Source of the DNA: a virus
Length of the DNA: 64,000 nt
Reading direction: 5' to 3' (one strand)
Virus record (IMG/VR): IMGVR_UViG_3300021168_000025
Coordinates: 1-64,000 of that record
The position numbers and the translations under genes are program-made. Positions 6,737-52,798 of the stretch are shown here, piece after piece. Positions within the stretch are counted from its first letter, which is position 1. The number at the start of each line of letters is the position of its first letter. The notes under the pieces were generated by a model. The model was given only the letters and a program-made list of their open reading frames with translations, did not search any database and had not been told where the DNA came from.

Positions 6737-8227
6737 ATGGCACAGGGTCTTTCTGTCAGTCGCGTTGTCGATGTTATGGTGAACTTCTCACCGCAGGCGA
6801 TCCCGACCCAACGGTTTGACACTCTGCTGGCGATGGGTGACAGCGGGGTGATTGATACCGGTGAGGCGATCCGCGAATACAACGCTATCGCCGATGTTGC
6901 CAATGACTTTGGTACCACCGCACCCGAGTACCTCGCGGCCTTGGAGTTCTTTGGCCAGACACCGCAACCGGCGTTGATGTATATCGGCGAGTGGGCGAAT
7001 ACCGCGACCAAAGGTAGGCTCACGGGCGGGTTACTGACAGCGCAACAGCAATTGATCTCGAATTGGACCGGCATCGTCAACGGCGAGTTCAGTGTCATAC
7101 TCGATGGCGGCGCGGCGACGCCGATCAGTGCGTTGAGCTTTGCCGGGGCGACCAATCTTAATTCCGTGGCCGCGACCATCCAGGCGGCAATGCGTACAGC
7201 GGCGAGCGCACCAGCACTGACCTTTATCTGGAACGGGACGCAGTTTATCTGTCAGAGTGGGACCACCGGTCCCACCTCTTCGGTGAGCTTCTTCACCGCA
7301 GGGACTGGCGGCACCGATATTTCGGCACAATTGATGATGACCAGTGCGACCGCAATCCGCAGTACCGCCGGCATCGCCGTCGAAACCCCGGTGGCGGCTG
7401 TCGCTCGCGTTGACGGGCGCGGTTGGTACGCGGTGACTTTTGCCGCGTCGCGCACATTGACCGACCCGGAACATTTGGCGGTGTCGGCTTATGTCGAGGC
7501 ATCTGATGACAAGCATATGTACGGCATCACGACCAGTGAGCAGACTTGTCTCGATCCGGCAAATGTTACCGATATCGGCAGCCAAGCGATGCTGGCCGAT
7601 TACATGCGGACAACGATTCAGTGGTCACTGACCAATCCCTACGCTGTGTGTTCCTTTTTCGGTCGGGCACTGACCGTGAACTTCGAGGGTAGTAACACCA
7701 CGATTACCATGAAGTTCAAGCCAGAGCCGGGCGTGTTCCCGCAGATACTGACCGGGTCGCAGGCAACGACACTCGCCGATAAGCGCCTCAATGTCTACGC
7801 CCAGTACAATAACGGCGCGGCGATCACCCAGGAAGGTGTCATGTCGGGCCGTGCCTATTTTGACGAGATGCACGGGCTGGATTGGCTGGCGAACCGGATA
7901 CAAAACGATCTGTTCAACGTGTTGTATACGTCACCAAAAGTTCCGCAGACCAACCCCGGTGTCCACGTTCTTGTCACAACCTGTGACGCCAGTTTGTCAC
8001 AGGGCGTGCAGAACGGGTTGATCGCGCCGGGTGTGTGGAACGCACCGGGTTTTGGCGAACTGCAACAGGGTGACACCTTGCACTATGGTTGGTACACCTT
8101 TGCCAATAATGTTGATACACAGTCACAGGCCGATCGCGAGGCGCGTATCGCGCCCTTGATCCAGATCGCTGTGAAGTTGGCTGGTGCCATCCATTTTGCG
8201 GACGTGTTGATCAATGTCAACAGGTGA
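6737..8227 (+). CDS. Tail sheath protein (DUF3383 family)
   Basis: 496 aa. N-terminus, size and position match the DUF3383 tail-sheath-like family: a beta-strand start (SVSRVVDVMVNFS), a DTLLAMGDSG segment, an ALEFFGQTPQP segment and a C-terminal helix ending in VLINVNR. Sheath subunits polymerise around the tube and contract to drive it through the host envelope. This gene is the main evidence for a contractile tail. SD GAGGAG at 6723-6728. Confidence 0.85.
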   Translation: MAQGLSVSRVVDVMVNFSPQAIPTQRFDTLLAMGDSGVIDTGEAIREYNAIADVANDFGTTAPEYLAALEFFGQTPQPALMYIGEWANTATKGRLTGGLLTAQQQLISNWTGIVNGEFSVILDGGAATPISALSFAGATNLNSVAATIQAAMRTAASAPALTFIWNGTQFICQSGTTGPTSSVSFFTAGTGGTDISAQLMMTSATAIRSTAGIAVETPVAAVARVDGRGWYAVTFAASRTLTDPEHLAVSAYVEASDDKHMYGITTSEQTCLDPANVTDIGSQAMLADYMRTTIQWSLTNPYAVCSFFGRALTVNFEGSNTTITMKFKPEPGVFPQILTGSQATTLADKRLNVYAQYNNGAAITQEGVMSGRAYFDEMHGLDWLANRIQNDLFNVLYTSPKVPQTNPGVHVLVTTCDASLSQGVQNGLIAPGVWNAPGFGELQQGDTLHYGWYTFANNVDTQSQADREARIAPLIQIAVKLAGAIHFADVLINVNR

Positions 8228-8273
8228 CTCTTAGTCGGGACATTGACCGAGACTGTGATGAGAGGAGGGCAGC

Positions 8274-8747
8274 GTGGCGACCTACAGTTTCAACGACAAT
8301 ATGTGCGCGATCAGCGGACCCAACGGTGCCTTTAGCCTGGGGTACGGATCGTGTAACTCCGAAGGCGGTATCTCGGTGAACATGGTCGAAGACAAGAGCA
8401 CCATGACCATCGGCGCGGACGGTTGTGTCATGCACAGCCTGCATTCGGGCAAGGGCGCGACAGTCACTATTCGGCTGCTCAAAACCAGCCCGACCAACGC
8501 GTTGCTGTCACAAATGTACGGCATGGACACTAACACCGCCGGTAACCCCGGTGCTTCGGCCAATCACGGACAGAACCAGATTAGTATCCGTGATCTGCAA
8601 CGCAATGATGTGATCACCTGTCAGCAATGTGCTTTTGCGAAGTTCCCCGATGTCACCTTTGCCAAAGAAGGCGGCGAAATGGTGTGGACGTTCCATGCTG
8701 GTGTCGTTGACTTTGTGCTAGGTTCGGGACTCGCGGTCGCGTTCTGA
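8274..8747 (+). CDS. Tail tube protein (DUF3277 family)
   Basis: 157 aa, GTG start with GAGGAGGG 6 nt upstream. The N-terminal SFNDNMCAISGPNG, the ISV strand with DKSTMTIGADG and the VTIRLLKTSP strand match the DUF3277 tube family, which always follows the DUF3383 sheath gene. Tube subunits form the inner rigid cylinder of the tail. Confidence 0.85.
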   Translation: MATYSFNDNMCAISGPNGAFSLGYGSCNSEGGISVNMVEDKSTMTIGADGCVMHSLHSGKGATVTIRLLKTSPTNALLSQMYGMDTNTAGNPGASANHGQNQISIRDLQRNDVITCQQCAFAKFPDVTFAKEGGEMVWTFHAGVVDFVLGSGLAVAF

Positions 8748-8774
8748 CATTAGTCGCTTAGGGAGGGTGACAAA

Positions 8775-9227
8775 ATGGAAGAACTGGAACTCGGCGGTAC
8801 GTGGTATCGCACCGGCAAGCTCGACGCGTTCAAGCAGTTTCACCTGTTCCGCAAATTGATGCCCCTGTTCAGCGGGATGGGTGAGACTGCGGCTGTGCGT
8901 ATAGCACGGGAAGCGGGCGCGAATAACGAGGTTCTTAACTGGGCCGGACTCGGGCCGATAGCGCAAGCCGTCGCCGAGATGTCACAGGCAGACAGTGAGT
9001 TTATCATCAAGACCTGTCTGACGGTGTGCCAGAGAAAGAACCCGACCGGACAATGGGTGCGAGTTACCACGCCGCAGGGTGATTTGATGTTTGAGGACAT
9101 CGATCTCCAGGTGATGTTACAGTTGTCATTCTCGGTGATTCAGGACAACCTCGCACCTTTTTTTCCAGGCCGCTCCCTCAACGGTTCGGGAGCCGAGGTG
9201 GCCCCAGCATCGAACCCGTCGATATGA
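8775..9227 (+). CDS. Tail assembly chaperone (G-like)
   Basis: 150 aa. Position between tube and tape measure and the leading segment LELGGTWYRTGKLDAFKQFHLFRK fit the tail-assembly chaperone family of DUF3383/DUF3277 phages. The C-terminal part contains a run of seven Ts read CCT-TTT-TTT, a -1 slippery heptamer. The final codons overlap a 59-aa ORF as ATGA. By analogy with lambda G/GT, the short product and a frameshifted long product would both chaperone the tape measure. Confidence 0.8.
   Translation: MEELELGGTWYRTGKLDAFKQFHLFRKLMPLFSGMGETAAVRIAREAGANNEVLNWAGLGPIAQAVAEMSQADSEFIIKTCLTVCQRKNPTGQWVRVTTPQGDLMFEDIDLQVMLQLSFSVIQDNLAPFFPGRSLNGSGAEVAPASNPSI
9158..9164 (+). other. Probable programmed -1 frameshift site (T TTT TTT)
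   Basis: The heptamer lies in register as X XXY YYZ (codons CCT TTT TTT). After a -1 shift the ribosome reads from 9164 with no stop through 9224 and into the downstream ORF frame, giving a fusion of 130 + 79 = 209 aa. The register match and the open path are directly visible. Confidence 0.75.
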
Positions 9228-9404: not shown

Positions 9405-12137
9405 ATGGCCGATACGGTCCTAGAATCATTCCTCATCAAACTCGGCTATCAGGTTGATCAGTCGAGCCAGAAGAACTTTTTGTCAGCGATTTCTGGCGCT
9501 CTTGGCATGGTTGGCAAGTTCGTTGGCGAATTGGTGGCACTGTCAATTGCGGTTGAGGAGATGGTGCGCCGGACAGCGGCGCAGATGGCGCGGTTACATT
9601 TTACGGCGGAACTGGCGAACAGCAGTTCCCTGGCGATGAAACGTTACGCCGAAGCGGTGCAGTCTGTTGGTGGTAGTTACGAACAGGCGATACAGTCACA
9701 GGAGAAGTTTGGTCAGTTCCTGTTGCAGCAGCCGTGGATGAAGGGTTACGCCGCTGCGGCAATCGGACGGGAATTTGCTAATACCAGTGACTTTATGGAG
9801 GCTGCCACCCAAAAGTACCACCAGTTATCGCAGCAATTTGGTGAGGATAGCAAGGAAGTCCAGGCCTACCGTATCGAGCTTGAGCAGGTTCTCGGCATCG
9901 ATATGAAGCCACTGATCCTGGCGGATAAGGATTGGGAAGGTCACACCAAGGCGATTGAGCAAGCCAATCGGGCGACCGAAGCGTTCGGTTCCCGGTGGAA
10001 TGAGACAGAGGTACAAGCTGTCAGACTCACGCGCAGCTTCGGCTTCCTGACGGACACCGCAGACCGTTACTATAAGACCTCGATGAAAGGTCTTATGGAG
10101 TTTTTGACGACCATCTTTGACGCAGTCAACAATTGGTTACTAAGCCAAGCGCCGAAGTTCGAATCGTGGATGGATGAACTAGAACAAAATTTCAGAGAGG
10201 GTAACTGGGAAAAGCTTGGTGAGCAGATTGGTGACTTAATCCTTAACGCCATTACCAAAAGTATCGATTACATCGGTCAGCATTTGGAGGGTTGGGTAGA
10301 GGCCGGGTTGAAGGCTGGTGAAGCCTTTGCCAACGGCTTTGAGAATTCGTTGCTGAAAGTGTTACCGACCTGGATGAGTGACGCCATCGCCAAGATCGAA
10401 GGGCGACCGGGTTCCGAGAAGATTGAGTGGGGCAAAATCCTTCATGACTTTATCGGCTTACCGCCGGAGATGGATAAGTGGCTGCGGAACTTGAACAATG
10501 AGCCGGGTTTCCAGCCGGGTCCGCATTACAACGGGGAACCAAATCTGACACCCGGCAAGCCGCCCGGCAGTTACCAGCATGGTGGTATTGTTCCCATCAA
10601 CGCGCACCCCGGCGAGATGGTACTGCCAAAAGTGATTAGTGACGGGTTACAGTCATTTTATGGCGGCGGTGAAGAGAACACCTGGATGGATGATGTGAGT
10701 CGCTGGTTGGAGGGTGACACTGCCTTTGAGCCGATGGTGAATTTTGTTGATGAGGTTTATACCAAGCTGACTGATGTGTTTGAGGACGCGCTTCTCCGTG
10801 TCGGTGGCGGTGCCGGTGCCGGCGGTGGCGGTGCCGGTGGCGGCGATAAGCCTAGTACGGGTGACGGCGATAAGCCCAGTGGTGATAAGCCCAGTGACGG
10901 TGATTCTACCAAGGCTGTACCATCACTCTCCGGTGGCTCGAAGCAACAGCAGGCGATGGATTACTTTATCAAAGCCGGATGGACAAAGGAACAGGCAGCC
11001 GGGATTGTCGCTAATTTGTCGGTCGAAACCGGCGGTACCTTTGATCCGAAATCAAAGGGTGACAGCGGTCAGGCTTATGGTGTCGGTCAGTGGCACCCGG
11101 ATCGTCAGGCGAAGTTCAAGGAGATTTTTGGCAAGGATATCAAAGAATCGACGTACGCGGAACAATTGGCCTACGTCAATTGGGAACTCCGAAACGGCGG
11201 GCCATTAGAGCGTAAGGCTGGTGAGGAACTCAAGAAGCAGTTGACCGCCGAAACATCGGGCGCGACAGTCAGTCGGCGCTACGAGCGCCCCGCCGCCGCC
11301 GACTACAATGCGCGGTTACGCGGGCAGAAAGCGGCCGAGATCGCCCGAACCTATCAGCCCGGTGACACTGCCACCCTACCTGATCAACAACAGTTACCAA
11401 AAGATAGTTTCGGCGGCGGTGGCGGTGGTGCGGTGGGGAATGTAGTCGATCAGATGATCGCCCTCTCCGGTGGCCGTGGCGCGGCGGTGCGTGAGTTTCT
11501 CCGCAACCCGAAAGGTGTCATTGAGCGCGATCCCGATCTCGGTTTGTGGTGCGCCGAGTTCACCAATGCTTACCTGCAACATTCTGGTGTTCCGCACCCG
11601 CCCGGTTTATTTGCACGCTCGTACGCGGCTTGGGGTTACGCTGTCGCAGCCAAAAACTTGCGCAAGGGTGACGTGCTATTGAACCTCAATCGAGCGCATG
11701 TCGGTGTCGCAACCGGCAAGACATGGCTCAATACGCCGGGTCACAAGCCGGGTGAGGTCGAGGAGATATCATCAAACACGCTTGGACCGCATGGTGAGTT
11801 GCTGAATATTCCGGGAACGCGGTGGCGCAGCGATGTTGAAGTGCGGCGTTCGGCTGAGCTTGCAAAGCTCCAGGAACAAACCAATCAGGTTGAGGTGGCA
11901 CAGAAGGCGCAGGAACTCAAAAAGAACCAAGACCAAGCTGCCCAGCGTGACATCCAGTACAGTTCCGGTCTGAAACCTGTTGCTGCAAACGATCAGTCAC
12001 GGCCGATCACTGATAACAGTACCAATATAACGCACATTCACGGCGTCACTAATTACCACGACGCGATACCGGGGCAGGTTACCGGAGATCGTCGTGACGC
12101 CTATCAGAAACGCTATCAGAGGACGTATTACGCATGA
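9405..12137 (+). CDS. Tape measure protein with tail lysozyme and CHAP-like peptidase domains
   Basis: 910 aa. The N-terminal 250 residues are helical with hydrophobic patches typical of tape measures. A Gly-rich QHGGIV...PGEMVLP segment (about 390-410) is common in tape-measure C-halves. After a Gly/Asp/Lys linker, residues about 512-645 look like a phage tail lysozyme domain (YFIKAGWTKEQAAGIVANLSVE, then YGVGQWHPDRQ), with the Glu of SVE as candidate acid. Residues about 690-800 resemble the CHAP/TIGR02594-type Cys peptidases: LWCAEF with Cys716 and His765 in NRAHVG. The tail therefore carries two wall-cutting activities for DNA entry. It overlaps the next gene by ATGA. Confidence 0.82.
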   Translation: MADTVLESFLIKLGYQVDQSSQKNFLSAISGALGMVGKFVGELVALSIAVEEMVRRTAAQMARLHFTAELANSSSLAMKRYAEAVQSVGGSYEQAIQSQEKFGQFLLQQPWMKGYAAAAIGREFANTSDFMEAATQKYHQLSQQFGEDSKEVQAYRIELEQVLGIDMKPLILADKDWEGHTKAIEQANRATEAFGSRWNETEVQAVRLTRSFGFLTDTADRYYKTSMKGLMEFLTTIFDAVNNWLLSQAPKFESWMDELEQNFREGNWEKLGEQIGDLILNAITKSIDYIGQHLEGWVEAGLKAGEAFANGFENSLLKVLPTWMSDAIAKIEGRPGSEKIEWGKILHDFIGLPPEMDKWLRNLNNEPGFQPGPHYNGEPNLTPGKPPGSYQHGGIVPINAHPGEMVLPKVISDGLQSFYGGGEENTWMDDVSRWLEGDTAFEPMVNFVDEVYTKLTDVFEDALLRVGGGAGAGGGGAGGGDKPSTGDGDKPSGDKPSDGDSTKAVPSLSGGSKQQQAMDYFIKAGWTKEQAAGIVANLSVETGGTFDPKSKGDSGQAYGVGQWHPDRQAKFKEIFGKDIKESTYAEQLAYVNWELRNGGPLERKAGEELKKQLTAETSGATVSRRYERPAAADYNARLRGQKAAEIARTYQPGDTATLPDQQQLPKDSFGGGGGGAVGNVVDQMIALSGGRGAAVREFLRNPKGVIERDPDLGLWCAEFTNAYLQHSGVPHPPGLFARSYAAWGYAVAAKNLRKGDVLLNLNRAHVGVATGKTWLNTPGHKPGEVEEISSNTLGPHGELLNIPGTRWRSDVEVRRSAELAKLQEQTNQVEVAQKAQELKKNQDQAAQRDIQYSSGLKPVAANDQSRPITDNSTNITHIHGVTNYHDAIPGQVTGDRRDAYQKRYQRTYYA

Positions 12138-13639
12138 GTGGTGGTGGTGACTTTGGTGGTGGCGGTGACTTTCCGTCCGATCAGGGCGGGGGGAACTTTA
12201 GTGGTGGCGGTGACTTTCCTACGGGTACTCTAGATAAGACCCGTTTCGCCAACACATCCACCCAAAGCAACAACTTCTCGGTGTCGGACCTCAGTAAGGA
12301 TTCGGCTTTGACCGAAGGCTGGCGCAAGCTTGCGTACCAGATGCAACCGTCAGAGGGTGCAGGCTCTGGTCAGCTTGACCCTTCATCGATCAACAATGAC
12401 GCGCAGTGGTTACGAGTCTTCAGTTTGATTGTGTACAAGTCCGGCGCACTTGCTGCGAACACCGGGAACTCGCCTACCCACGCTTCCTCTGCGGCTGCTG
12501 CGCCACAGGGTGCGCGTGTCGTACCGTTCCCGCGCTCGCGTGTAGCGACGCCGCGTGATACGCCCTCGACCACCCTCGACCCGGTCGAGGTTACCGCCCC
12601 GGCAAACCAGCCGCAGCAGCCGCAACAGGATCGTGGGATCGACCTGTCCAATTTGCGGTGTGTGTTCAATATCAACAAGACGACAAATCAGTCACCAAAC
12701 ATATTGTACGCCAGGGTGTATAACCTGTCACCGACAACCCTAGCCAAGGTACTTGAGTTCACTCGCGTGCAAATCAGTGCCGGGTACCGCTACGCCAATT
12801 ACGGGCTGATCTTTGATGGCAAGGTTGTGCAGTACCGGCGCGGCAAGGAGACACCGGTTGACACCTATCTTGAGATACATGCGGGTGACGGCGACGCTGC
12901 GATAAACGGCGCGATGTATTGGGCGGTGACTCACGGTGGTACCAAGGCGGCTGACATGATAAAAAACCTCCAAGCCGCGCAGAAGGAATATGACAAAGAT
13001 TTAAAGGAACCCGCACCCATCGATCCTAAACTGTACCCCGGTTACATCAGAAAGACGCGGGTCGATTTTGATCACTGGAAGCGGTTACAGTACGAATTCG
13101 ATAACGCCTATGGAACCCAGGCGATAATCGATAACGGGCAGCAGATCATTCTGTCCAAGGGGGCTTACCGTACCGGCGAAGCGGTGGTCTTGTCACCAAA
13201 GACCGGTTTGATCGGTTTGCCGGAAGTGACGCCGCAGGGTATCCAGGCAAAGTGTCTATTGAACCCGCGCATTCAGTTGGGCGGTTTGGTGAAGATCGAT
13301 TCGGCGGTTTTGTCGGGCGTGGCGTATACCCCAGGCACCGCAGCCCAGGTTGATCCGAATACCGGGAACATTGTTGCCGGTGCGCCGACCGGCGGTCTTA
13401 CGACCGGTGACCTCGCCGTTGCGATCCGGGGACAGAAGCTCGAAACAGCCTGGACGAGTCCGATTGGACTGTACAAGGTACTGTTGATGAACATCAACGG
13501 TGACACTCGCGGTAACCCTTGGTACAACGATTTGATCATGGTTGCGCTAGATAGTAACGGTAACCTGATGCGCGACGCGAACCCGTCCAACGCGTTTCGC
13601 CGCGCTAGTACCGCCGCGATCAACGCCCCGGTGAGGTAG
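12134..13639 (+). CDS. Baseplate hub protein
   Basis: 501 aa. A Gly-rich N-terminus with repeated GGGDF motifs and a Pro/Thr linker (to about 170) precede a domain whose strands (LRCVFNINKT, ILYARVYNLS, VQISAGYRYANYGLIFDGKV) and late segment (GLYKVLLMNINGDTRGNPWYNDL) match the hub protein family of DUF3383-type myoviruses. In such phages it forms the tail-tube-to-spike connection. The repeated N-terminal GGDF segments are an addition not usual for the family. Confidence 0.75.
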   Translation: MSGGGDFGGGGDFPSDQGGGNFSGGGDFPTGTLDKTRFANTSTQSNNFSVSDLSKDSALTEGWRKLAYQMQPSEGAGSGQLDPSSINNDAQWLRVFSLIVYKSGALAANTGNSPTHASSAAAAPQGARVVPFPRSRVATPRDTPSTTLDPVEVTAPANQPQQPQQDRGIDLSNLRCVFNINKTTNQSPNILYARVYNLSPTTLAKVLEFTRVQISAGYRYANYGLIFDGKVVQYRRGKETPVDTYLEIHAGDGDAAINGAMYWAVTHGGTKAADMIKNLQAAQKEYDKDLKEPAPIDPKLYPGYIRKTRVDFDHWKRLQYEFDNAYGTQAIIDNGQQIILSKGAYRTGEAVVLSPKTGLIGLPEVTPQGIQAKCLLNPRIQLGGLVKIDSAVLSGVAYTPGTAAQVDPNTGNIVAGAPTGGLTTGDLAVAIRGQKLETAWTSPIGLYKVLLMNINGDTRGNPWYNDLIMVALDSNGNLMRDANPSNAFRRASTAAINAPVR

Positions 13640-37236: not shown

Positions 37237-38370
37237 CTAAGCGGCCTTCCTGCGCGGAATCGGTGACGGGATGTAGTGCGCGTGACCGAGTTGCGCGATG
37301 GCGAACGGTGCCGGTGCGTCTTTGCCGTGATGCCGCCAGTACCACTCCTCATGCAAGTGACTGAGGAATATCTTGACGGTGAAGCGCCGCGCCATGGCGT
37401 CGATATGTGCCGGCGGCAGGATACCCGTGCTGTACGCTTTGTACGCATCGGTAGTCTTGCCTACGGTTTCCGCGCGCACCTTGGCAACCTCGCGGAACTC
37501 ACCCATCTCGTTGCGCGTGACCTCGCGCTCCTTGCGGCGGCGGTACAGTTGCCCATAGAAGCACTTCTCGTCGTTGCTGAACATCATGAATGAGTGACCA
37601 GCCTTCCAGCACAGGGTTTTGAACCCGGCGTTCCACGGGCGCTTCTCGCCCTTTGTCCACGGACGGTTACCGGAGAACGCGCGGAAGCTGCGGTCTACAC
37701 CGATGATCCGGGGGATGCTGTCGAGGATCGCCGGGTGCGCCGCATCGCTCTCGATCACTACCTGGAAGAACGCGTGCGAGTCACCGTCAGGGTAAAGGTA
37801 TGTGGCCTGATATGGCGGCTCCAGGTGTAGTGTCGGGATGACACCCTGCGGGATCGGGTTCCGGTAAGCGACACGGTAGACCGCACGCTTAAGCTCGGTA
37901 TTGGTCACCGGACCCGCGATACCGGCGTAACTCCAAATGTGACCGACTGTAGGTGCCCGCTCGATCTTGATGTGCGCGAGCAGCCCGGCCGAGATCACCG
38001 GGCCGATACCGTACACCTCGCGCATCCAGCCGCCCATCATGTGGGATTGGGTGTAGACATCGAGCGCGGCCTTGATCTGTCCCTCCATGGTGGAGTTCTG
38101 GGTCTTTAGCCATGTGATGATTTCGTGCGGCTCGTTGGACGCGTTGAGCGCCCGTTCCTGGCCGGCGGCGCGTTTGCGGTTTTCCTGCATGATGTAGTAA
38201 GCGTCAACTAGGAAACGCGCCTCGGTGTCACCGAGTGTCGCCGCGCCCTTACGCAGATCGCGGGTGAGCCGGGTGACCGGGTTTAGTTCCAGATCGAAGT
38301 CGGGTTCACCGCGCATGCATTCACCGCGCGGCCACGGGCAGCGGTGCTCCAGCAGTGTCGTGTCAGACAT
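37237..38370 (-). CDS. HhH protein related to the IS110/IS116 transposase C-terminal domain
   Basis: 377 aa. Residues about 118-152 (VYGIGPVISAGLLAHI, then TVGHIWSYAGIAGP) match the Transposase_20 (IS116/IS110) helix-hairpin-helix region. There is no IS110-type DEDD catalytic domain ahead of it: the first 110 residues are helical with a Cys/Pro-rich start. Related phage proteins without a transposase function are known from memory. It probably binds branched or structured DNA. SD GGAAGGAG. Confidence 0.65.
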   Translation of the reverse strand: MSDTTLLEHRCPWPRGECMRGEPDFDLELNPVTRLTRDLRKGAATLGDTEARFLVDAYYIMQENRKRAAGQERALNASNEPHEIITWLKTQNSTMEGQIKAALDVYTQSHMMGGWMREVYGIGPVISAGLLAHIKIERAPTVGHIWSYAGIAGPVTNTELKRAVYRVAYRNPIPQGVIPTLHLEPPYQATYLYPDGDSHAFFQVVIESDAAHPAILDSIPRIIGVDRSFRAFSGNRPWTKGEKRPWNAGFKTLCWKAGHSFMMFSNDEKCFYGQLYRRRKEREVTRNEMGEFREVAKVRAETVGKTTDAYKAYSTGILPPAHIDAMARRFTVKIFLSHLHEEWYWRHHGKDAPAPFAIAQLGHAHYIPSPIPRRKAA

Positions 38371-48242: not shown

Positions 48243-48428
48243 TTAGGCGAAGCCCCATTCGGCCAAGCCCTCGACCAGCGAGCCGACATAGCGCGGCTCG
48301 ACAACCAAGGCACCACCGAACCACTGCGCTTCCGCATCGACGTGGTCTTCGAGGAAGATGCGGCACTCTTCAGTGATCGGGGTGATCAGGACGATTGAGC
48401 CGTGATCGGCAATGGTGAACTCAGGCAT
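48243..48428 (-). CDS. Small conserved phage protein
   Basis: 61 aa. ATG at 48428 suits GGGAGA at 10 nt spacing; an in-frame ATG 9 nt upstream is too close. A family of small phage proteins shares HGSIVLITPITEE and AQWFGGALVVEPRYV. Function unknown. Confidence 0.68.
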   Translation of the reverse strand: MPEFTIADHGSIVLITPITEECRIFLEDHVDAEAQWFGGALVVEPRYVGSLVEGLAEWGFA

Positions 48429-48501
48429 TGTGACCATTCTCCCTAGTGAGAGGTTCTTTGGAACCCGGTGACCAACCACTGGTCACCGACTTCACACCCA
48501 T

Positions 48502-48533
48502 AGAAAAACCCCCGGTCACGAATGACCGGGGGT
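48502..48533 (-). terminator. Intrinsic terminator / leader hairpin
   Basis: CCCCCGGTCA stem, TTTTTCTATGGGTGTG on the minus strand. Confidence 0.88.
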
Positions 48534-48796: not shown

Positions 48797-49030
48797 TTAC
48801 CTCCGTACGAAAGCCACACCATTGTGGGCTAGGGTGATTGCAGATTGGACCTGAGCCTCGCTCGGCAGCACGACCGGGTAGAACCGGCCGGCCGGCGTGG
48901 CGGCGATCAGGTAGGTGAGGTTTTCATCGGTACCGCCCAGCTTGGCCACCGTCTTGTGGAGCGCCTTCTCGGCGTTCTCGTAAGTGGCGTAGGTGCGCGG
49001 CATGTCGTCACTAAATGCCTTGCGTAACAT
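48797..49030 (-). CDS. Small hypothetical protein
   Basis: 77 aa, SD GAGGAGC. Contains TYATYENAEKALHKTVAKLG and YLIAATPAGRFYPVV, a pattern shared by small phage proteins. Unknown. Confidence 0.66.
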   Translation of the reverse strand: MLRKAFSDDMPRTYATYENAEKALHKTVAKLGGTDENLTYLIAATPAGRFYPVVLPSEAQVQSAITLAHNGVAFVRR

Positions 49031-49064: not shown

Positions 49065-49099
49065 TAAGAAAAACCCCGCCGTGTTACCGGCGGGGTTTT
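49065..49099 (-). terminator. Intrinsic terminator / leader hairpin
   Basis: AACCCCGCCG stem, TTTTTCTTATGGTGTGAC on the minus strand. Nearly identical to the one at 42624-42658. Confidence 0.88.
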
Positions 49100-49101
49100 G
49101 G

Positions 49102-49320
49102 TCACTTCAGCGCGTTATCCAGTTTCATACCGTAGATGTGGACGCGGGCTTTTTGTGCCGCCTCGGTCTTGGTGCGCCAGCTACCGTTCTCGAAGCCGGT
49201 GTTGATGATGGTGAAAGACCATGCCGCCGCGTGGCGATCCCACGGGATCGTCACCTTCTTCACATCGTAAGTGACGCGGCAGAAGCTGTCCCGGTAGTGA
49301 CCGGCGCTAACCCGTAACAT
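49102..49320 (-). CDS. Small hypothetical protein
   Basis: 72 aa, SD AAGGAGGGAGC. Contains WDRHAAAWSFTIINTGFENGSW then a helix. Overlaps upstream gene. Unknown. Confidence 0.66.
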   Translation of the reverse strand: MLRVSAGHYRDSFCRVTYDVKKVTIPWDRHAAAWSFTIINTGFENGSWRTKTEAAQKARVHIYGMKLDNALK

Positions 49321-49528
49321 GTGCTCCCTCCTTTTCTTCCGGCAGAAATGGCTTCAGGCTATTGGCGATATAGCCGACCGCGATATTGGCCCGCATCACC
49401 TGTTTGCGGCCCTCAATCTGCTGCTCGCGGGTTAGGCCGTCTTCGTCCTCGACGCGGAAAAAATCGGCCCAGGCGAGCGCCTCGGCGTCGATTGCTAGCT
49501 CGATCTGTTGTGCGGTGTACTCGGTCAT
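49307..49528 (-). CDS. Small helical acidic protein
   Basis: 73 aa, SD CGGAGA. Helical with an acidic centre (FRVEDEDGLTREQQIEGRKQVM) and an IAVGYIANSLKPFLP helix. Unknown. Confidence 0.65.
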   Translation of the reverse strand: MTEYTAQQIELAIDAEALAWADFFRVEDEDGLTREQQIEGRKQVMRANIAVGYIANSLKPFLPEEKEGAHVTG

Positions 49529-49555
49529 CTGAAGTCTCCGAAGTGTGTCACACTT

Positions 49556-49592
49556 AAACAAAAACCCCCGGTCACGAATGACCAGGGGTTTA
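49556..49592 (-). terminator. Intrinsic terminator / leader hairpin
   Basis: CCCCxGGTCA stem, TTTTTGTTTAAGTGTGAC on the minus strand. Confidence 0.86.
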
Positions 49593-49595
49593 GGG

Positions 49596-49772
49596 TTAGT
49601 CACGGTAGTGACGTTCGGCCCAAGCGTCGTTGCGGCGCTCGGTTTCCCGACCGTCATCCTCGGCCATGCCGGTGTCCGTGTCGAACGGCTCGACATCGGT
49701 ACCGCCGCAATGCGGGCAAGTATAAGCCGGTGACGGCTTGTTGCACTCGTAGCAGAACAGATCGTTACGCAT
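49596..49772 (-). CDS. Small zinc-ribbon protein
   Basis: 58 aa. CYEC (7-10) and CPHC (19-22) make a compact zinc ribbon, followed by an acidic stretch and a helix with WAERHYRD. SD ATAGGAGC. Below common length limits; clear from SD, clean frame and metal motif. Confidence 0.7.
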   Translation of the reverse strand: MRNDLFCYECNKPSPAYTCPHCGGTDVEPFDTDTGMAEDDGRETERRNDAWAERHYRD

Positions 49773-49811
49773 TTGGTTAGCTCCTATCTGTGACCCTAGT
49801 TGTCACACCAT

Positions 49812-49846
49812 AAGAAAAACCCCCGGCAAGTGAATGCCGGGGGTTT
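49812..49846 (-). terminator. Intrinsic terminator / leader hairpin
   Basis: AACCCCCGGCA stem, TTTTTCTTATGGTGTGAC on the minus strand. Confidence 0.88.
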
Positions 49847-49849
49847 GTG

Positions 49850-50044
49850 TTACAGTGGCAGTTCCGGCGCGATGCGGTCGCGCTCGGCGTAGATTTCCGC
49901 CGCCGCCTTCAGGCCGGCGCGCTTCGCTTGGGTGTAGGACGCGAAGAAACCCTTGCGGGTGACAATCTCTTCGTCCTCGTAGATGACGAATTCGTGCTTG
50001 CCGTGCAGGCGGTAGTCGCGACCGACCACCATCGAGAGTGCCAT
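49850..50044 (-). CDS. Small hypothetical protein
   Basis: 64 aa, SD CAAGGAGTAAC. A strand (GKHEFVIYEDEEIVTRKGFFASY) then helix (TQAKRAGLKAAAEIYAE). Similar layout to the next gene; may be divergent paralogues. Unknown. Confidence 0.66.
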   Translation of the reverse strand: MALSMVVGRDYRLHGKHEFVIYEDEEIVTRKGFFASYTQAKRAGLKAAAEIYAERDRIAPELPL

Positions 50045-50048
50045 GGTG

Positions 50049-50264
50049 TTACTCCTTGTTGTGGCGCGCGGCATACGCCGCCATCTGCGCCGCGTAGTTC
50101 GCCTCGACGTTGTCGAGGTACCGCTTCGCAAACGCGACCGCTTCGTCACGCGTCACAAACGCGTAACCGCGTACCTGTGACTGACGCCCGTCGTCATAAA
50201 CAACGACCGGCACGTACGGGTAGCGCGGGTTACGACCGTGTTTGAGGGCTGATGGTTTCGACAT
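50049..50264 (-). CDS. Small basic protein
   Basis: 71 aa, SD AAAGGAAC. Layout strand-turn-helix (VPVVVYDDGRQSQVRGYAFVTRDEAVAFAKRYLDNV split by a turn) as in the preceding entry. Unknown. Confidence 0.66.
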   Translation of the reverse strand: MSKPSALKHGRNPRYPYVPVVVYDDGRQSQVRGYAFVTRDEAVAFAKRYLDNVEANYAAQMAAYAARHNKE

Positions 50265-50305
50265 GGTAGTTCCTTTAGTGACATCCTAGTGTCACACCCT
50301 ACAAC

Positions 50306-50342
50306 GCAAAACGCCCCCAACCGATATGATCGGCGGGGGCGC
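50306..50342 (-). terminator. Intrinsic terminator at the end of the candidate ncRNA
   Basis: 6 + 5 bp stem with a small internal loop (GCCCCC..CCGAT with ATCGG..GGGGGC), then GTTTTGCGTTG on the minus strand. Confidence 0.85.
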
Positions 50343-50800
50343 TTGTGTATTTCTAGGTTTGGAGATTCCGCAACCCGCGAAGGGAAAGACCGTGCCCATC
50401 GTCACGCTTTCGCGTGACTTATCATTGACCCCAGGCTCCGGTGCCGCGCGACCCCCGTGCGGGGATGGCGGCTGCCTTGTGTCTCGGCCGAAGCCGGGGG
50501 ACACGCCGGGACCGCTACCCGCATGCGATGCGGGATAGGCCTCGGGCTGCCTGGGACAGGCATGGTGCTAGCGCGGCGGGCGATCCAAGGCACGGGAACC
50601 CATTTGAGGGAACCGGGCTTGAATGCCGATGCCGCTTGCGGGGCTGGCGGTCGTCTGCCAGAGCCTTGCTGACCGGGAACTTCTCTGGCCGGGTTGTCCG
50701 ACCAGCCCCTGACGGGGCATCCCTTCGGTGGCTCCCCCGGAGGCTCCCTCCCTGATGTTCCGGGAGGGACCACCCTCCGGGGTCCACCCTATAGATGGGG
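50343..50800 (-). ncRNA. Candidate large structured non-coding RNA
   Basis: About 460 nt with visibly higher G+C than its surroundings and no credible gene. On the minus strand many strong stems are visible: a 7-bp stem with GAAA loop (about 50401-50418), a stem with UUCG loop (about 50488-50499), a 6-7-bp stem near 50520-50536, CCCC/GGGG near 50706-50717, CCCTCCC/GGGAGGG near 50744-50766, and a nested long arm in which GGCTGG-CGG (around 50690-50705) pairs with CCG-CCAGCC (around 50642-50652) and encloses GCCAGAG/CTCTGGC. It ends in an intrinsic terminator and is preceded by repeat array D. Not recognised as tmRNA, RNase P or 6S; related in style to ornate phage RNAs such as GOLLD and ROOL. 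Confidence 0.6.
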
Positions 50801-50802
50801 AT

Positions 50803-50815
50803 TAAAGTTACTTTT
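50803..50815. promoter_or_regulatory. TAAAGTNACTTTA-like palindrome
   Basis: TAAAGTTACTTTT is an odd-centred 11-bp palindrome (AAAGT-T-ACTTT) just upstream of the candidate ncRNA. A 13-bp perfect copy occurs at 60930-60942. Possible operator. Confidence 0.35.
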
Positions 50816-50880
50816 TCAAGGTTTTTCTTTGCGTGACTTTTCAATGGGTTAGGCGGTGTCCACGCTTAAAGTTCTTCTTT

Positions 50881-51008
50881 GACTCAGTCACCTTTTATTG
50901 GGTGACTGTTTGCTCAGATCATATGTTTCTCTCGCCCATCGTGGCTCGTTCCGGGGCTTTGTTTCAGGTTCTCCAATTAAGACTCACTCTCTTCTAATGT
51001 TTCTTTCC
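50881..51008. repeat. 36-bp-type repeat array D (decayed)
   Basis: Three or four degenerate units: starts near 50912, 50943 (GGCTCGTTC) and 50981 (GACTCACTC), each followed by a TGTTTC block. One perfect 8-bp hairpin (50885-50908, CAGTCACC/GGTGACTG) lies at the distal end. The last unit overlaps the 3' end of the helicase gene. Confidence 0.65.
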
Positions 51009-52592
51009 CGGTTTAAGGTTTAGAGTCTTTTGTGGGTTGTCTACCAAGGCTTTCCACAAGTCACCGCCGGTCGCGTGGAACCCTAGTATTAGCTCATCAA
51101 CCGAGTCTTTGACAACAAGGTCGTAGATAAAGCAGCGGTGTTGCTGCCCGGTGCGGTGGATACGCCCTTCGGCCTCGGCGCGTGGTACGACGCCGACCGG
51201 TGACTCGTAGAATAGCTCGTAGGAGCCGACTTGCAGGTTCAGCCCCATCGATGCCTTGCGCCAGTTCGCCACCAGGAACCGGTACTTCGGGTCGGTGTTG
51301 AATGACTCCTTGATCAGTGTCCAATCCTTGGTACCGCCCCATAGCCAACCGTGCTTGATCTTTTCCTTGGTGAGCGCGTCACTGATCTTCTGGCCGGACA
51401 CGTTGAACTCATAGAATATGACACATTTGCGATCTTCGGGAATCTCCTTCACCAGTTCCATCAGTAACTCAAGCTTGGGGTTGACGGCGAACTCCACCTG
51501 GGCGCGCTCGCCGCTTTCGTCATCGATAAACCCGACAAACCCGGAACTGATCTGCCGCATGCGGAGGAACGCGTTACGACATTCGCGGAACTTACCCTTA
51601 CTGGCGAATAGTTCGTCGCGCGCCTTGATGAAATAGTTCCAGTTCTCGACCGGGAAGTCACAAGCCTTGATCACCTTTACCTTGGGTGGTAACTCGACGC
51701 ACTCCTCGACCGAGTACCGCAGTGACGATGAGGCGATGAACCGGGATAGGGTCGGTTGCAGCTTCTTGCGCAAGGTGTACTCGGTGCCGCCCCACTTCGG
51801 GAAGAACTTCGAATAGAACGCCTCGCGGAACATACCCATCTGGGTACCCAACGCCCGACCGTGATCGGCGAGGTACAGTTGTGCCCAGATCATCGCCGGG
51901 TCGCGGCCAAAGGCGCGGCCGGCTAGACCGTAGCGCACCTTGGCGTGGAGCGAGAAGTGTTTACAGACCTTATAGTTCAGCGAGCCGGTGTCACCGACAC
52001 TGGTTGACTGGTCAAAGAACACCGCATCGACATGCATGCCGACCTTGTCGAGTAACTCGGTTAGCGGCTGCCGTCGTTTGTGTCCGGTGTCGTGGCCGTT
52101 GCGATCCCGCCGGGTGACCATCTTGGATACCATCGCCGCGATCCCGGCGTAGGTACCGATAATCAAACCGTCACCGGTAAGTGTGGCCAATGTAAGCCAT
52201 TTTTGCGCACTCGACCCCTTACGCAGTGACACATACGGGAACGGGAACCCCCACTTGACGATCTCGTCTTCCCACGACTCGACCAGTTCGTCGGTCGGAC
52301 AGAACACGATGCCGCGCCGGATGGTACCGATGCGCAGGAAATAGTTGAAGAGTTCCAGTGACACGACGGTCTTGCCCAGACCGAGATCGGTCATAAACAG
52401 TATCTCGGGGTAGGCCGCGCCCAGGAGGAAGCAAATCTTCTGGTCGGTGCGCAGCGGCGCGGTAAACTTTGGGCGCGGCTTGACCAGCTTGAGGTCGGCG
52501 GTGACCGCTTCCGCGCTCAGTGACTTAATCCAGGAGAGTTCCTCGACTTCACGGCTGAGGTATTCGGTTACGGCTTTGGGGGAGATCGGCAT
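50994..52592 (-). CDS. SNF2/DEAD-like helicase
   Basis: 532 aa. Motif I TDLGLGKT (68-75), motif Ia-like region, motif II VFFDQST (191-197), motif III GLAGRA (222-227) and motif V/VI SMGLNLQVGS and EAEGRIHRTGQ (448-483) show an SNF2-like superfamily 2 ATPase. Motif II reads DQST rather than DEAH/DESH, so the usual Glu is Gln; ATPase could be impaired or altered. TGATG overlap with the upstream gene. Probably remodels DNA or displaces proteins in replication or repair. Confidence 0.85.
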   Translation of the reverse strand: MPISPKAVTEYLSREVEELSWIKSLSAEAVTADLKLVKPRPKFTAPLRTDQKICFLLGAAYPEILFMTDLGLGKTVVSLELFNYFLRIGTIRRGIVFCPTDELVESWEDEIVKWGFPFPYVSLRKGSSAQKWLTLATLTGDGLIIGTYAGIAAMVSKMVTRRDRNGHDTGHKRRQPLTELLDKVGMHVDAVFFDQSTSVGDTGSLNYKVCKHFSLHAKVRYGLAGRAFGRDPAMIWAQLYLADHGRALGTQMGMFREAFYSKFFPKWGGTEYTLRKKLQPTLSRFIASSSLRYSVEECVELPPKVKVIKACDFPVENWNYFIKARDELFASKGKFRECRNAFLRMRQISSGFVGFIDDESGERAQVEFAVNPKLELLMELVKEIPEDRKCVIFYEFNVSGQKISDALTKEKIKHGWLWGGTKDWTLIKESFNTDPKYRFLVANWRKASMGLNLQVGSYELFYESPVGVVPRAEAEGRIHRTGQQHRCFIYDLVVKDSVDELILGFHATGGDLWKALVDNPQKTLNLKPGKKH

Positions 52593-52798
52593 CACTCCTC
52601 CTTGGCGGCGAACAGTGTAGCTTCGGGACCGCATGCGCCCAGCGTCCGCATGGTTTCGACGGTGTGCACAATGGTCCGCGTGGTACCATACAGGTAGTCG
52701 TTTACCTCGATGTACGATTTGGGATGCAGACAGCGCGGCGTGGGGAAACCGCTCTCGTTGATGGGTCCGACATGGATACAGTCACGACACGCTTTCAT
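52592..52798 (-). CDS. Small Cys-rich protein
   Basis: 68 aa. CRDC (4-7), then RCLHP near 22-26 and a later Cys suggest a zinc-binding fold shared by small phage proteins. ATGA coupling upstream, TGATG downstream to the helicase. Unknown. Confidence 0.68.
   Translation of the reverse strand: MKACRDCIHVGPINESGFPTPRCLHPKSYIEVNDYLYGTTRTIVHTVETMRTLGACGPEATLFAAKEE

Follow-up and report, generated by a model that had tools for sequence, protein, structure and literature searches.

GOLLD is a long, heavily paired phage noncoding RNA of unknown function that combines one conserved and one variable part, and ROOL is a phage-borne long structured RNA without a known protein partner; homo-oligomeric RNA assembly into nanocages has been reported for both (PMC12286853). 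Here we describe a minus-strand locus in a 64,000-nucleotide stretch of viral DNA (hereafter the window) whose predicted RNA resembles these systems. Like ROOL, it is phage-borne, long and structured, and like GOLLD it belongs to a phage, is long and heavily paired, and has a conserved and a variable part. However, GOLLD often exceeds 800 nt, compared with ~430–485 nt here, and its conserved part lies at the 3' end, whereas that of the present RNA lies at the 5' end. Moreover, GOLLD and ROOL are often found near phage tRNA genes, whereas an ARAGORN search of the whole window returned no tRNA.

Models of GOLLD, ROOL and OLE gave no match up to E 10, either at the RNA locus or in L002, a related contig that carries a homologue. 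On present tests the RNA is not a member of GOLLD or ROOL; by analogy, it may work as they do. An initial annotation, made from the sequence of the window, had matched the locus to no class, and the covariance-model search with cmscan against 4227 Rfam families (Rfam 15) agreed, leaving the window without a match at the gathering score. The likeness to ornate phage RNAs that the same annotation proposed stands as a likeness of style only, with no family match behind it. A weak match to Clostridiales-2 RNA (RF02937; 82 model positions, 50718–50794, minus strand) scored 21.8 bits, below the gathering score of 58.6, and had no match in L002, and we rejected it as chance or superficial.

A G+C-rich gap beside a helicase gene

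The proposed gene (Table 1) lies in an intergenic gap at 50265–50993 (from the ORF list of the window), between a helicase gene (50994–52634) and a small gene (50049–50264), both on the minus strand. The initial annotation had described a 729-bp gap holding about 460 nt richer in G+C than their neighbours. The gap indeed measures 729 bp, and positions 50343–50800 have a G+C content of 66.8%, as against 42.5% at 50801–50993, 60.6% at 50049–50264 and 56.7% in the whole window, a level matched by only 1.7% of 458-nt windows.

Table 1. Proposed features of the locus, in window coordinates and ordered from 5' to 3' on the minus strand
Feature	Position	Strand	Details
Proposed noncoding RNA gene	50306–50790	-	~485 nt transcript; homologue in the same place; fold z -5.5 (50300–50810); no coding signature; ends predicted
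Upstream direct repeats, candidate promoter/activator sites	50807–50844	-	TTGAAAAGTCACG 50832–50844; TTGAAAAAGTAAC 50807–50819
Candidate promoter -10 region / 5' end	50787–50798	-	CCATCTATAGGG (CCATCTATATGG in L002); conserved in L002; small hairpin as alternative
Conserved 5' core	50735–50799	-	61/65 positions identical to L002 (alignment A3)
Long 5' hairpin, CCCCGGAGG-GUGG-UCCCUCCC-GGAnnAUCA-GGGAGGGA-G-CCUCCGGGG	50735–50782	-	17 pairs: 16 unchanged, one broken in L002
Three-way junction	50672–50729	-	compensatory changes; structure score of 50662–50739 beats 80 + 80 controls (0/80 and 0/80 reach it)
Hairpin-like motif CCGCAAGCGG, invariant	50632–50641	-	identical in L002
GGUUCC...GGUUCC hairpin, tip length varies	50595–50614	-	segment 50578–50671 borderline (2/40 controls match or beat its score)
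Long-range helix around 3' domain, 5' arm GCCGCGC	50571–50577	-	both arms found in L002; 3' domain not significant for covariation
UUCG tetraloop hairpin	50486–50495	-	present on the minus strand
Long-range helix, 3' arm GCGCGGC	50443–50449	-	both arms found in L002
GAAA tetraloop hairpin GUCACGCGAAAGCGUGAC	50401–50418	-	apparently absent from L002
Intrinsic terminator	50306–50342	-	inverted repeat I10; L002 counterpart CAAGCGCCCCC, arm, GGGGCGTTTG

A search with the helicase identified two IMG/VR contigs, L002 and L003, in which the helicase is 79% identical to that of the window. In both, a homologue of the RNA occupies the equivalent position 3' of this helicase and is followed by a terminator; in L002 the counterpart spans 8490–8916 (~427 nt). 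As the L002 and L003 copies differ at one base in 530, there are only two distinct sequences, that of the window and that of L002/L003, and we thus speak of a candidate rather than an established family. Conservation between the two is uneven. The first 65 nt at the 5' end are 94% identical, compared with 54% for third codon positions of the helicase gene (4/65 versus 243/529 positions differ; Fisher p = 2e-11), and the 3' part of the RNA is ~55–61% identical.

Further copies were sought in several ways. A hairpin-pattern scan of viral contigs returned only L002 and L003, and the patterns GCCGCGCTNGCACCATGNC, TGGACCCCNGAGGGTGG and CCCCGTCAGGGN{6,9}GACAACC, also run on viral contigs, returned the known contigs and unrelated loci. 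Scans of genome contigs gave 0 matches with a strict pattern and ten, all unrelated, with a looser one. Such pattern scans rely on exact short matches and could miss copies of the RNA that have diverged. A helicase-profile scan yielded 80 loci, with no RNA copy in those searched with model R1 (a covariance model of 50672–50799); a DnaB-like helicase query had no matches; a small-gene query led to three further phages, all without the RNA; and no similar DNA was present in phage and plasmid records.

Other elements were observed in the window and in other phages. The ORF at 48243–48479 is preceded by a noncoding leader that contains two hairpins (48437–48511, minus strand). This 5' leader, a second candidate regulatory RNA element, shares 90% identity over 72 nt with positions 12134–12205 of the related phage L117. 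Between 39 and 50.3 kb on the minus strand, and also in L117, many of the small genes are closed by an intrinsic terminator, with GTGTGAC ~10–15 nt further on, often within a GTGTGAC..CTAG..GTCAC palindrome immediately before the next ribosome-binding site, a layout common to both. The minus-strand protein at 37237–38370 matches phrog_4285 (transposase) without a Pfam match and is 81% identical in a related phage. In the unrelated phage L097, a gene-poor region (~6800–7835) contains repeated AATCCAAATGCGAAAGTCCTA-like units and the palindromic AACGTTCGAACGTT.

Folding and covariation of the minus strand

The minus strand of the locus folds to -258.7 kcal/mol when the terminator is included (z -5.5, 0/100 shuffles as low) and to -229.7 kcal/mol when terminator and promoter region are left off (z -4.3, 0/100 shuffles), all shuffles preserving dinucleotides. 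The plus strand folds less well (z -3.0). The full-length L002 homologue folds on par with its shuffles (z -0.9); extreme stability as such is therefore not conserved. The UUCG and GNRA loops and the long arm noted in the initial annotation are all present on the minus strand, the arm as a pairing of 50443–50460 with 50560–50577.

Beyond the 5' part the plain sequence alignments are poor and RNAalifold gained little from them, and we therefore used a home-made program that folds and aligns the window and L002 copies together; with two sequences and a scorer of our own making, its results are indications rather than proof. Controls were generated either by permuting only the differing letters or by shuffling alignment columns, both of which keep identity and gaps. 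For the 5' 128 nt the structure score exceeded those of all 80 + 80 controls, as it did for the junction segment (Table 1). The junction consists of an ACCG/CGGU stem, an inner stem, a CCCC-GUCA-GGGG hairpin and a second hairpin. Two of these carry compensatory changes: the inner stem is GGA/UCC in the window versus AAG/CUU in L002, and the second hairpin is CUGGU/GCCAG versus UUCGG/CCGAA. The long 5' hairpin is nearly invariant, and covariation therefore says little about it; sliding its partners by 1–3 columns lowered the share of paired cells from 98% to 30–69%.

Further 3' the signal fades. The tip of the hairpin at 50595–50614 is CCC-UCAAAU-GGG in the window and CC-GAAA-GG in L002, within the segment listed as borderline in Table 1. 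Covariation was not significant for 50443–50577 (9/40 controls reach the score) or for the 3' part as a whole (4/40). Covariation support thus appears only in 50662–50799. The significant quantity is the structure score and not the number of double changes: a pair count on a fixed alignment, which has low power at two sequences, found 3 double changes, a number that 61/500 shuffles also reached.

Absence of covariation in homologues had been named in the initial annotation as grounds for abandoning a structured RNA. What we find is mixed, with compensatory changes in 50662–50799 and no significant signal in the 3' two thirds. Of what it proposed, a structured noncoding minus-strand RNA that ends at the terminator can be retained; an ornate nested fold over the whole 460 nt has so far gained no support, as only 50662–50799 passes the covariation test.

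A probable stand-alone RNA gene and its alternatives

We favor the interpretation that the locus is a stand-alone phage noncoding RNA gene of ~430–485 nt from an undescribed family, to which we assign a probability of roughly two in three. This reading draws on the homologue, the sequence constraint, the compensatory changes in the 5' domain, the lack of a conserved frame, the retained terminator and the independence from both neighbours; expression of the RNA, its exact ends and its action in trans are inferred. As to the marks of a stand-alone unit, a terminator is present and kept in L002, and repeats upstream are conserved: TTGAAAAGTCACG and TTGAAAAAGTNAC are retained in L002 in the spacer alignment, and TTGAAAAGTCACG occurs once per related locus, always upstream of the RNA. 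No sigma-70 consensus promoter was found upstream of the RNA. The terminator at 50306–50342 and a minus-strand start after a repeat array had both been anticipated in the initial annotation; the terminator and the upstream repeats are seen here, the repeats being partly conserved.

The surroundings of the RNA bear on two alternatives. In L002 a gene for a TylF-like methyltransferase (7619–8359), absent from this place in the window, sits between helicase and RNA, and L003 likewise has a methyltransferase gene there. On the other side, the next gene 3' of the L002 RNA is the homologue of window 48797–49028, and the small genes just downstream of the RNA in the window (49072–50305) have no nucleotide match in L002. 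The RNA has thus stayed with its upstream repeats and terminator though both neighbours change. It therefore looks like its own unit, and this speaks against both a 3' UTR and a leader tied to a single gene.

It is unlikely, for these reasons, that the RNA is a long structured 3' UTR of the helicase transcript that protects or regulates that mRNA and has no promoter of its own. Such a reading would suit the position of the RNA directly 3' of the helicase gene on the same strand, its ending in the first terminator after that gene and the failure to find a sigma-70 consensus promoter, but it sits poorly with the intervening methyltransferase gene of L002 and with the A+T-rich spacer and its conserved repeats that separate helicase and RNA. 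It is more doubtful still that the RNA is a 5' leader controlling the downstream small genes through attenuation at the terminator. The order of structured RNA, terminator and gene is indeed the layout of riboswitch-like leaders; however, a terminator of this kind closes most cassettes here, the two phages have different genes after the RNA, and the intervening small genes of the window are without counterpart.

We regard as similarly improbable a role of the segment as DNA, namely as a replication origin or a regulatory element that bears iteron-like repeats and hairpins, next to replication genes. Direct repeats do lie in the A+T-rich flank beside helicase genes, and in the 5' domain neither strand folds better than the other: its reverse complement scores about the same as the minus strand, and that of the 3' part scores above the minus strand, with its controls rising too. 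As both strands fold comparably, folding does not decide the strand. Instead, the minus strand is favoured by the conserved terminator and by the UUCG and GAAA loops, which are of RNA type. These features speak against a DNA element, as does GC skew, which has no turning point near 50.5 kb.

A protein product of the locus, for example from the frame at 50515–50844 on the minus strand, is very unlikely on the pattern of substitutions. Open frames of 109–123 aa exist, and one of them is 46% identical to L002 over 89 aligned columns by BLASTP. However, such similarity arises in several frames and on both strands wherever the DNA is conserved, and the protein alignment contains 17 gaps and, past its first third, fails to convince. 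Between the window and L002, substitutions are spread evenly over codon positions (54/47/52), and most of the indels (1, 2, 2, 4, 2, 9, 2, 3 and 39 nt) break the frame, whereas the helicase gene, treated identically as a positive control, has substitutions of 100/61/243 and indels of 12 and 3. The even substitutions and frame-breaking indels indicate that the locus is not protein-coding, and we rejected the BLASTP similarity on the same codon-position grounds. In the initial annotation the long frames had looked like by-products of GC content, with a synonymous bias named as what would reveal a coding frame; no such codon signature is found. Finally, that the folding is a by-product of G+C-rich composition can be set aside with near certainty: the L002 fold only equals its shuffles and high G+C inflates pairing, but the copy in the window beats dinucleotide-preserving shuffles, and the covariation controls and the constraint on the 5' core speak against it.

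Possible mode of action and significance

If the locus is a stand-alone RNA gene, transcription of the minus strand would start near 50783–50790, shortly after the conserved TTGAAAA(A)GT repeats, and would stop at the intrinsic terminator. The product would comprise a nearly invariant 5' domain, made up of the long hairpin and the three-way junction, followed by a fast-changing G+C-rich 3' part. The RNA probably acts through the conserved 5' domain, judging from conservation alone (a sharply conserved 5' domain versus a drifting 3' part). In the likeliest mechanism, this domain, with its GGAnnAUCA-loop hairpin, would bind a partner, either a protein or another RNA, and the 3' part would serve as a structured spacer or stabiliser.

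More speculatively, these sequences might be the first members of a phage RNA class not yet described, either with the near-invariant 5' domain as a rigid module that binds a specific partner (protein or RNA) or with the RNA assembling with itself as ornate phage RNAs do; we hold this as a tentative proposal. If true, about 0.5 kb of the phage would be given over to an RNA machine. There are few long structured phage RNAs of unknown function, such as GOLLD and ROOL, and these turned out to have unexpected structures. The RNA described here would be another family, shorter than these, whose sharply conserved ~120-nt 5' domain would offer a concrete target for pull-down and structure determination.
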